The translations under genes and the position numbers were made by a program. Shown in pieces: positions 26,694-30,470 of a stretch of DNA of 64,000 bases. The notes below the pieces were generated by a model that searched no databases, was not told the origin of the DNA, and saw only the letters and a list, made by a program, of their open reading frames with translations. Position 1 is the stretch's first letter. Each line of letters begins with the position of its first letter. Source of the stretch: Natronobacterium gregoryi SP2 (lineage in GTDB: Archaea > Halobacteriota > Halobacteria > Halobacteriales > Natrialbaceae); NCBI RefSeq assembly GCF_000230715.2, contig NC_019792.1:2294001-2358000 (forward strand), read 5' to 3'.

Positions 26694-27242
26694 ATGCTCG
26701 TTCGGTTCGTCACTGGAAACGAAGGCAAAGCCCGCGAGGCCCAGGAGTATCTGGACGGAATCACCGCCGTCGAGCGAGTCGAGTACGACTACACCGAGAT
26801 TCAAAGCGACTCACTCGAGGAAATCGCGACTCGAGGCGCACGCGAGTCGTTCGAGGAACTCTCGGGGACGGAACCGGTGCTCGTGGGCGATACGGGGATG
26901 TTCGTCGACACACTGGGTGGCTTCCCCGGCCCGTACTCGGCGTACGTCGAAGACACCGTCGGCGTCGAACGGCTCTGGCGACTTGCAAGCGAGGAGGACG
27001 ACCACCGGGCGCGCTTCCGGACCGTGCTCGGCTACGCCGACGCCGACCGGACCGAGACCTTCGAGGGAGAACTCGTCGGCACGCTCGTCCCGCCACGCGG
27101 CGATGGCGGATTCGGCTACGATCCGATCTTCGAGTACAACGGCCAAACGCTGGCCGAGATGGACGTTGAGGAGAAAAACGCGATTTCGCATCGCGGCCGC
27201 GCGCTGGCGACGTTTGCGGACTGGTACGCGGACTGCGAATAA
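26694..27242 (+). CDS. XTP/dITP diphosphatase (RdgB/HAM1 family)
   Basis: A 182-residue non-canonical purine NTP pyrophosphatase that hydrolyses XTP, ITP and dITP to monophosphates, keeping them out of nucleic acids. The N-terminal substrate loop is TGNEGK (7-12), the metal/catalytic Asp is D66 in LVGDTGMFVD, and the GFPGPYSAYV and ISHRGRAL motifs complete the site. Length fits the family. It is preceded by AT-rich DNA (CGGCTATATTCTC about 26 bp before the ATG), a likely TATA box. Confidence 0.93.
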   Translation: MLVRFVTGNEGKAREAQEYLDGITAVERVEYDYTEIQSDSLEEIATRGARESFEELSGTEPVLVGDTGMFVDTLGGFPGPYSAYVEDTVGVERLWRLASEEDDHRARFRTVLGYADADRTETFEGELVGTLVPPRGDGGFGYDPIFEYNGQTLAEMDVEEKNAISHRGRALATFADWYADCE

Positions 27243-27245
27243 CTG

Positions 27246-27749
27246 TCACTCGAGTTTGTTCCCGGTCCGTCGTGCTCGAGGGTTCAGATCCGGACCGGGA
27301 TACTCGCCGCCCTCGATTTCCGCGTAGAGGCTCTCGGGATCGAAGAGGGTCGCGAAGGCGTCCGGCGGCCGAACGCTGACCGAGACGCGTGGTTGCATCG
27401 AGAGGCCGGCTTTCGCCGACCCCAGTTGCTCGTCGTAGGACAGCAGGTGCGCCGCGTTCCCGCGGTAGGCCGAGGCCAGCGCTGGGGGGTCGTCCTCGGG
27501 GTGGTCGACCGTTCGGCGTTCGGCCTCGAGTCGCTCGCGATGGTCCGCCGCGAGGTCCTCGTCGGCGAGGTCCGTGACGATGCGTTCGGTTCGCTCGAGG
27601 AGGTGGTCGCTCGCGACGAGCTCGACCCAGGAGTGACTGCGGACGTGATCGAGCGCCTCGCGAGCGTCGCCACCGATCAGGAGGTCGGATGCAAGTACGT
27701 CCACGTCGGCGACGACGCGGGCCGGATTCGGGCGGTCGTCGTCACTCAT
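27246..27749 (-). CDS. PIN-like nuclease-domain protein
   Basis: A 167-residue haloarchaeal protein with PIN-like layout: an acidic first strand VVADVDVLASDLL (D15, D17, D22), a helical middle with acidic residues, and a late strand HLLSYDEQL with another Asp. Four acidic residues in this order are the usual metal site of PIN ribonucleases. The fold is inferred from pattern, not from a named match. The gene overlaps by 8 bp the end of a 34-codon upstream reading frame (27742-27846), as in coupled toxin-antitoxin pairs. Convergent with the RdgB gene, 3 bp apart. Confidence 0.7.
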   Translation of the reverse strand: MSDDDRPNPARVVADVDVLASDLLIGGDAREALDHVRSHSWVELVASDHLLERTERIVTDLADEDLAADHRERLEAERRTVDHPEDDPPALASAYRGNAAHLLSYDEQLGSAKAGLSMQPRVSVSVRPPDAFATLFDPESLYAEIEGGEYPGPDLNPRARRTGNKLE

Positions 27750-27846
27750 CGTCGGCCTCCAGGTCGTCGATCGCCGCGCGAATCTCCTCGAGTGAGACGT
27801 CGTACGCCGAACCGCGTTCGAAGAGGTCGCTCCAGGTGTTCGTCAT
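27742..27846 (-). CDS. 34-residue microprotein upstream of PIN-like gene
   Basis: MTNTWSDLFERGSAYDVSLE and then EIRAAIDDLEADDE: a small acidic, probably helical peptide. Its end overlaps the start of the PIN-like gene, so it would be translated first and coupled to it. The composition is protein-like and haloarchaeal (acidic, no stop in a high-GC frame would be expected by chance over only 34 codons, so length alone is weak evidence). An antitoxin or regulatory role is inference. Confidence 0.55.
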   Translation of the reverse strand: MTNTWSDLFERGSAYDVSLEEIRAAIDDLEADDE

Positions 27847-27895
27847 TAGGGGGACCTTGGCAACGCGATCCCAAAAGACTCGCCCCTCTCGGTCG

Positions 27896-28142
27896 TCACT
27901 CGCGTGCGAGTCGGTCGTACAGCCAGCCAAAGAGGTAGCTGAACGCGAACGCGTCCACGAACCCGAGCGCAGTCCCCCACGAGGTCGCCGGGAGAGCGGC
28001 TGTAGCCGGGGTAGACGTCTTCGAGCAGCAGTCGCCATCGCTGGCCGTACTGCGTTCCCGCGAACAACTCGAGCAGCGCGACCACGGTCGCCCAGCGGAT
28101 GCCGGCCGAGAGGCCGAGCGCGCGTTTGTCGACGTTCGACAG
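27896..28142 (-). pseudogene. Frameshifted small membrane protein (haloarchaeal 'holin'-type)
   Basis: Read on the minus strand, the first frame gives SNVDKRALGLSAGIRWATVV and on through ELFAGTQYGQRWRLLLEDVY, PGYSRSPGDL. At about 27980 the meaningful reading moves to another frame, WGTALGFVDAFAFSYLFGWL then YDRLARE and stop. Joined, these make one two-helix protein similar to small haloarchaeal proteins often labelled phage holin. The codon where ATG is expected is CTG (28142). One indel and a lost start suggest a dead gene; a sequencing error plus CTG start is the alternative. Confidence 0.6.
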
Positions 28143-28179
28143 ACAGCACGTACCACAGCCAGTCCGTAAAGGTAACAGA

Positions 28180-29283: not shown

Positions 29284-29441
29284 CTACTTGCTGTTTGCTG
29301 GCGAGATATTTTACTATTGTGTGTAACTACGCGACGTTCCGGAGCGATGCTGAGAAACAAGTATTGGTTACGGGGTCTGGCGGGGAGACTGCCACACGAC
29401 CGACCAGCAGCCCTAAGAGCGAGCGATCGGAGCGTTCGAAC

Positions 29442-30470
29442 ATGAGTAAACTCGGCAAGATAGATCGAGAGTTCTTCGATCGCCACGTTGCGCCCAGGCT
29501 GGGCGCGACTCGCAACGACGTCGCCGTCGGCCCCAAACACGGCGTCGACTTCGGCGTGATCGACGTCGACGGCTCTGCACTCGTCGTTGCGACCGATCCG
29601 ATCTCGATTCTCCCGCCGCTTGGACTCGAGCGCGCAGCACGCTTCGCGCTCGATCTGATCCTCGCGGACGTCGCGGTCAGCGGCGTTTCGCCGTCGCACC
29701 TCTCTATCTGTTTCACCCTGCCGGAGACGATGACCGACGAGGCGTTCGCGACCGTCTGGGAGACGATTCACGAGGAGTGTGAGGATCTCGGCGTGGCAGT
29801 TACCACCGGACACACCGCCCGCTACTCCGACCCTTCCTATCCGTGGGTCGGTGCGGCGACAGCGATCGGCGTCGGCGACCACGACGAAATCGTCCGCCCC
29901 GACGGGGCAAGCCCCGGCGACCGGCTCCTGTTGACGACCGGGCCTGCCGTGGAGTCCGTGGGCCTGCTCAGCACGCTCTACGGCGACCAACTCGAACTGT
30001 CTGCCGACGTCGTCGCCGACGCCCAGCAGCGACTCGAGGAGGTTCACTGCGTCCGAGACGCGTTGACGGCCGCGGCCGCGGGCCCCGTGACGGCGATGCA
30101 CGACGTGACCGAGGGTGGGATCGCCGGCGCACTGAACGAGATGGCCGACGGTGCGGGCGTACGGTTCGCGGTCGACCACGAGGCCGTTCCGCTACGGCCT
30201 GGCGTCGCCGAGGTCTGTGCTGCCCTCGAGATTGACCCCTGGGCTGCCACTAGCTGTGGCTCGTTGGTGATCGCGGTCGAACCCGACGGCGTCGCCGACG
30301 TTCGCCGGGCTCTCGAGGACCGCAACACCGTCGTCGCGGAGATCGGCCGCGTCGAGTCCGGTGAGGGTGTCGTCGTCGACGGCGAGCGACTCGAGCACCC
30401 GAGCGTCGATCCGTCGTGGCGGGCGTACGCGGAACTCGCCGCTGAGGCAGACGCTTCCGATCAGGAGTGA
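29442..30470 (+). CDS. AIR synthase-related protein (HypE-like)
   Basis: A 342-residue member of the PurM/HypE/ThiL/SelD fold, with an ATP-binding N-terminal half and a C-terminal AIRS_C domain. Key motifs: the opening LGKIDREFFDRHVAPRLGA, the DPISILPP metal/ATP segment, a helix FALDLILADVAVSGVSPSHL, a GASPGDRLLLTTGPAVESVG strand, and MHDVTEGGIAGALNEMADGA, the typical HypE/PurM GG motif. True HypE ends in a PRIC-like Cys; here the C-terminus is AEADASDQE with no terminal Cys, so carbamoyl-thiocarboxylate chemistry for hydrogenases is not supported. The actual substrate is unknown. A cofactor-related role is suggested only by the neighbours. Confidence 0.8.
   Translation: MSKLGKIDREFFDRHVAPRLGATRNDVAVGPKHGVDFGVIDVDGSALVVATDPISILPPLGLERAARFALDLILADVAVSGVSPSHLSICFTLPETMTDEAFATVWETIHEECEDLGVAVTTGHTARYSDPSYPWVGAATAIGVGDHDEIVRPDGASPGDRLLLTTGPAVESVGLLSTLYGDQLELSADVVADAQQRLEEVHCVRDALTAAAAGPVTAMHDVTEGGIAGALNEMADGAGVRFAVDHEAVPLRPGVAEVCAALEIDPWAATSCGSLVIAVEPDGVADVRRALEDRNTVVAEIGRVESGEGVVVDGERLEHPSVDPSWRAYAELAAEADASDQE

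Follow-up and report, generated by a model that had tools for sequence, protein, structure and literature searches.

A small gene conserved beside the gene for DUF7384, a predicted PIN-fold protein of haloarchaea

GENES AT THE LOCUS

The window, meaning the whole stretch of DNA that was analysed, covers 64,000 nucleotides of the genome of Natronobacterium gregoryi SP2. On its minus strand a small open reading frame (ORF) precedes and overlaps the gene for a member of the Pfam family DUF7384 (PF24109). The features are listed below in window coordinates, residues being numbered as in the window's protein.

27873..27876, minus strand: TTTT of a putative TATA box, at -30..-27 from the ATG of the small ORF
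27857..27858, minus strand: AA, putative promoter-proximal element of a leaderless promoter, at -12/-11 from the same ATG
27742..27846, minus strand: gene for a 34-aa microprotein with the W-x-x-L-F-x-R module, ATG start, from the ORF list and a match to the module profile
27742..27749, minus strand: 8-nt overlap of the small ORF with the DUF7384 gene, of the form ATGNNTGA, a putative termination-reinitiation site
27246..27749, minus strand: DUF7384 (PF24109) gene, 167 aa, predicted VapC-like PIN fold (Pfam, and fold match of relatives)
D15, D87, D106 and an acid at 52/53/55: putative catalytic acids of DUF7384, from residue conservation
26694..27242, plus strand: rdgB/Ham1 (XTP/dITP diphosphatase), a convergent gene next to the pair, outside it, that serves as a synteny marker

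The product of the small ORF is MTNTWSDLFERGSAYDVSLEEIRAAIDDLEADDE, which is a separately encoded N-terminal partner of DUF7384. An earlier note, made from the letters of the window, had described a 34-codon ORF overlapping a PIN-like gene by 8 bp, and the coordinates found here agree with it. When the window's genome was searched with the module profile, this locus was the single clear match (E 2.1e-12).

Two further observations concern the surroundings. Between a gene for a MOT1-type transporter and the pair, at 27896..28170 on the minus strand, lie membrane-protein-like stretches in two frames, one of them ending GFVDAFAFSYLFGWLYDRLARE; they are possibly a frameshifted gene, and a Pfam scan of these pieces gave no family above cut-off. 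At 29409..30470 on the plus strand is an AIR synthase-related (HypE-like) gene, and 26 of 80 named loci have such a gene close to the pair.

CONSERVATION OF THE SMALL GENE

We fetched 227 DUF7384 loci, consisting of the best matches of several genome searches together with chosen regions. They encode 200 distinct DUF7384 proteins, a sample of those known, in which some genomes appear twice.

The earlier note had named, as a check, conservation of the small frame beside PIN-like genes in other haloarchaea. The module turned up at every one of the 227 fetched loci (201 with a separate ORF upstream of DUF7384, 26 with a fusion to it), and the attempt at refutation on this ground failed. The module profile found 225 of them (201 separate, 24 fused); the remaining two fusions (L157, L209) were recognised by eye. 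Upstream of DUF7384 the lowest of the 225 profile scores was 14.4 bits, while control stretches of equal size, taken from the opposite strand, from further upstream and from downstream, gave 2.1 bits or less. The module core spans 23 codons. Among its 171 distinct sequences the W is kept in 165, the L in 169, the F in 171 and the R in 161; the profile was seeded from ORFs matching a W-x-x-L-F-like pattern, which biases the counts of W, L and F and leaves that of R unbiased. Over 168 distinct small proteins the median length is 35 aa and the median net charge -6, in keeping with the 'acidic' peptide of the earlier note.

Selection on the small ORF was assessed by pN/pS, leaving out one separate locus that is cut by a contig end (L099). 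The value is 0.423 over 361 close pairs, which are not independent of one another; four of the five other frames give 1.37-1.59 and the fifth, which is antisense and in codon register, 0.535. Judged by these substitutions, the small ORF is under purifying selection.

The distance from the small stop codon to the DUF7384 start is also conserved. It is -8 in 158 of the 201 separate pairs, -4 in 15, -11 in 14 and -14 in 10, with -17, +6, +9 and +51 in one pair each; where several DUF7384 starts were possible (38 of 201) the one nearest to -8 was chosen, which favours that value, and among the 163 pairs with a single candidate start -8 was found in 123. Only three separate pairs (+6, +9, +51) do not overlap. 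The order that the earlier note called antitoxin-first, with the small gene upstream and overlapping, thus holds in the window, with its overlap of -8, and in most separate pairs.

Twelve genomes lacking DUF7384 above cut-off, two of them less than 70% complete, contained no convincing match; the best (E 0.0013) was partial, began at position 9 and lacked W-x-x-L-F, and the others were at 0.016 or worse. A Pfam scan of 30 modules returned no family matching more than one of them, the best single match being DUF5817_CT (E 0.0017), and no DNA-binding family among these 30 small proteins. A PDB sequence search with the module gave no convincing relative. Taken at the level of sequence, the small gene is real and is conserved beside DUF7384.

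PROMOTER AND OVERLAP

The region upstream of the small ORF has the appearance of a leaderless haloarchaeal promoter, with a T-run and, nearer to the start codon, a pair of A or T bases. In 199 distinct upstream regions T occurs at -29..-26 from the small start codon with frequencies of 58, 71, 77 and 85%, and A+T at -11/-10 with 65 and 60%. The TTTT and AA of the window lie one base further out than this signal. Because the putative leaderless promoter sits at a fixed distance from its ATG, the small ORF reads as the first cistron; the DUF7384 start then lies about 100 nt inside the transcript.

Overlaps of this kind have been studied in Haloferax. In the excerpted text of one report, nine overlapping pairs of H. 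volcanii and five of E. coli were tested and 13 of the 14 were strictly coupled (PMC6728339). Excerpts of another give the -8 spacing for 62 H. volcanii gene pairs and state that pairs encoding subunits of a complex make up 45.2% at -8 to +10 and 5.6% beyond +20 (PMC10666635). Of our separate pairs, 175 of 201 fall within -8 to +10 (158 at -8, 15 at -4, and those at +6 and +9). They resemble in this the coupled overlapping pairs of Haloferax (Huber et al. 2019, 2023), for which the excerpts tie the same range to termination-reinitiation and complex subunits. The present pair differs in having an upstream partner of unusually small size, which at some loci is fused, and the excerpts of those papers do not name it.

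DUF7384 AS A PIN-FOLD PROTEIN

The larger protein matches almost the whole length of the DUF7384 model (E 3.7e-73; 245 bits where the cut-off is 27); this Pfam model covers the PIN part and not the module. By sequence the PIN signal of the window's protein is a sub-threshold match to PIN_3 (E 0.027), which scores 15.7 bits where 27 are required. An NCBIfam search with it gave no family, and a PDB sequence search no convincing relative.

Structure comparison was made with models of natural fusions from relatives. By VIA the best match was VapC4 of P. horikoshii, with Z 9.8 over 121 residues at 3.4 A, and a second fusion model matched VapC4 with Z 9.4. The top rows were nearly all PIN proteins and mostly cover the PIN part. 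Housekeeping PIN RNases that share the fold, such as HARP, Utp24 and SMG6, stand lower in the VIA list (SMG6 at Z 7.8, HARP at 7.2); DUF7384 differs from these in having no match in the PDB sequence search. With Foldseek a VapC was again best (probability 0.95, E 0.048), although no row reached 0.001 and the third was an unrelated helicase. The PIN fold of DUF7384 is thus well supported by predicted structures, and the 'PIN-like' gene of the earlier note is borne out on the models of its relatives. From the fold, DUF7384 likely has RNase activity.

Putative catalytic positions were assigned from secondary structure and not from coordinates. Among the 200 distinct proteins D15 is kept in 190, D17 in 177, D22 in 199, D34 in 195, E55 in 159, D87 in 200, D106 in 192 (with E in 2 more) and D154 in 199. 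Since these acids are not all fixed, activity may have been lost in places, and one reading is that much of the family has a PIN fold without catalytic activity, the complex serving as a binding or scaffold protein. Four facts speak for it. The first PIN aspartate, D15, is replaced by A, G or S in ten proteins (L011, L019, L022, L027, L094, L098, L100, L180, L207, L221), two of which have no acid at position 17 either; E55 is absent from 41; in 28 of the 200 an acid is lacking at one or more of the positions 15, 52/55, 87 and 106; and D22, D34 and D154 are more conserved than D15. All the same, 172 of the 200 carry acids at 15, at 52 or 55, at 87 and at 106 together, and an acid at 52, 53, 55 or 56 is present in all 200. 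We regard a largely inactive family as unlikely.

NATURAL FUSIONS

At 26 loci, spread over 13 genus labels, the module is fused in frame to the N-terminus of DUF7384 through a linker that is variable and mostly rich in D and E. W-x-x-L-F-x-R is found in 18 of the 26 fused proteins and [WF]-x-x-L-F in 24. Five genera (labels g4, g12, g33, g50, g67) contain both forms. On a FastTree phylogeny of the 200 DUF7384 domains there are 11 changes between the separate and fused states, of which 3 are forced by well-supported branches; the direction of change is ambiguous.

AlphaFold2 models were made for two fusions. That of L057 (141 aligned rows) has pLDDT 95.1 and pTM 0.92, with blocks 1-30 at 97-98; in the model, module helices at 4-14 and 18-38 are followed by the linker and then by the PIN domain. 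From the pTM formula we derived a rough bound: were the module misplaced by at least 5 A, pTM would be 0.914 at most even with all else perfect. The model is therefore one in which the module packs firmly, its pTM exceeding this bound. The second fusion, L227, comes from the window's family and was modelled from an alignment of the 26 fusions alone (pLDDT 87.7, pTM 0.85). Its first two blocks score 92 and 97 and a low-confidence linker follows; if the linker adds little to pTM, this model too would imply packing. In both predictions the module is a two-helix unit, which agrees with the earlier description of the peptide as helical; the L057 model clearly packs it on the PIN domain. Covariation between module and DUF7384 was not enriched, with 8 of the top 60 pairs against 24% expected.

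The fusions bear on two simpler accounts of the small ORF. In the first it is a leader, its 34 codons delivering ribosomes to DUF7384 and its peptide having no role. The promoter signal at its ATG and the conserved overlap geometry would suit a leader, but the amino-acid sequence is under purifying selection, fused proteins that need no leader keep the motif in the proportions given above, and the module is predicted to pack on the PIN domain. We find a leader without a functional peptide very unlikely.

The second account is programmed ribosomal frameshifting across the overlap, which would yield one protein, and a joined product of exactly that kind is encoded at the 26 fused loci. The frame of the downstream gene, obtained by arithmetic from the distances, nevertheless varies by lineage: it is the +1 frame at distances of -8, -11, -14 and -17 and the other shifted frame at -4, and the pairs at +6, +9 and +51 are in the same frame behind a stop. 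DUF7384 has, moreover, its own ATG or GTG start at the overlap. Frameshifting is in our judgement very improbable.

DISTRIBUTION AND THE TOXIN-ANTITOXIN QUESTION

Within the window's family DUF7384 occurs in 123 of the 125 genomes, among them all 111 good ones, and always as a single copy. For the class the figure is 283 of 292 genomes, 282 of them above the Pfam cut-off, so that 9 have no match and 1 has a sub-threshold match only; for this reason it is not essential everywhere. The class genomes without DUF7384 above cut-off are G125, G129, G142, G162, G185, G193, G222, G286, G337 and G126. Three DUF7384-less genomes belong to genus label g50, whose other members retain the gene, which suggests recent losses there. 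A second match was seen in four class genomes: one was the other piece of the same frame, two were below cut-off and one, at 27.4 bits, barely exceeded it. In a phylum sample of 294 genomes the 49 with DUF7384 all belong to the window's own order; the 16 genomes outside the order, among those listed, have none, and 225 further non-matching genomes are unlisted.

Gene neighbourhoods were compared with a tblastn panel over 80 named loci, some of which are cut by contig ends. Downstream we found convergent rdgB in 67, Kae1-Bud32 in 41 and S24e in 21; upstream, 40 loci have the gene for a MOT1-type transporter and 25 have one for TrkA-N. Searches of 72,556 plasmid records and 50,697 phage records gave no match to DUF7384, and a scan of viral contigs gave no relative; entries lying very close to the window's genome may be missing from these sets. 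The pattern is that of a vertically inherited core gene.

Whether the pair is a toxin-antitoxin locus, as the earlier note had proposed, has to be weighed against this distribution. On such an account DUF7384 would be a growth-inhibiting PIN RNase, and the microprotein an antitoxin that shuts its active site until degraded. The likeness to VapBC is considerable: the large protein has a predicted VapC-like PIN fold, and the small acidic partner is encoded first and overlaps it. There is also a likeness of sequence. In Shigella VapBC, according to the excerpted text of the report, the toxin-binding tail of VapB is formed by residues 46-67 only, uses Trp47, Trp50 and Phe51, and sends an Arg to the VapC active site (PMC3384007). 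This short W-x-x-[aromatic]-F segment, which binds the PIN domain, resembles the W-x-x-L-F of the module and, when the Arg is counted, its W-x-x-L-F-x-R, a likeness judged by eye on few residues. By this analogy the module may work as a VapB tail does, though the pair is no VapBC locus, and it is possible that it inhibits the PIN domain.

Other properties set the pair apart from VapBC. It is a syntenic core gene pair, near-universal in the class and almost always present once. PF01850 PIN genes, by contrast, range from 1 to 15 copies across 31 genomes, although they include genes that are not toxins. Its partner, at a median of 35 aa, has no recognised DNA-binding domain by length and profile search. 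Supposed antitoxin and toxin form one chain at 26 loci. The module is kept by 10 of the 10 distinct proteins without D15, which is unexpected for an antitoxin unless D17 or other acids suffice. A mobile toxin-antitoxin origin is not supported by copy number, class distribution and synteny, nor by the empty plasmid, phage and viral searches. Of the earlier proposal, then, the real small gene, the VapC-like PIN fold and the conserved overlapping order are supported, and the toxin-antitoxin locus in its usual sense is not; we hold a toxin-antitoxin function to be distinctly unlikely.

A defence system was likewise not supported: PADLOC matched neither of the two proteins of the window, nor did it match the fusion L057. 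Literature searches under 'DUF7384' found no paper, nor did those under HVO_1890 to HVO_1894, which we take to be neighbours of HVO_1895 (Kae1-Bud32). Among the titles listed by searches on haloarchaeal small proteins with PIN domains, PIN toxin-antitoxins and small-ORF ribosome profiling, none concerns this pair.

A PROPOSED TWO-PART UNIT

On the account that we favour, DUF7384 and the small protein probably function as a single unit, encoded in the core genome of haloarchaea and produced either by coupled translation of two genes or as a fused chain. DUF7384 would be a PIN-fold protein with a housekeeping role, probably a metal-dependent RNase whose substrate is cellular RNA. The 34-aa product would serve it as an obligate micro-subunit, forming two helices that by prediction pack against the PIN domain. 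The transcript would be leaderless, beginning at the micro-subunit's ATG or directly beside it; having read the small ORF, ribosomes would terminate within the overlap and then reinitiate to translate DUF7384. Such coupling would give about equal amounts of the two products, a 1:1 heteromer whose assembly could be co-translational. Fusion in 13 genus labels would secure the same fixed stoichiometry by another route, and either the fused or the split form may have come first.

On this account a near-universal haloarchaeal protein of unassigned function gains a predicted PIN fold and a putative obligate partner of about 35 residues that is absent from Pfam. The occurrence of split and fused forms inside single genera makes the pair a ready test case for the part of translational coupling in complex building. 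It also suggests that other PIN proteins may have overlooked micro-partners.

A historical account can be added tentatively. A VapBC-like system may have been domesticated early in haloarchaea, its antitoxin losing the DNA-binding half to leave a 30-residue clamp and the pair turning into a fixed core RNase; in several lineages, fusion with the enzyme would then have made the clamp a regulatory domain of the same protein. We rate this history as unlikely. If it were true, the separate and fused loci would be living intermediates on the way from a toxin-antitoxin pair to a single self-regulated enzyme.
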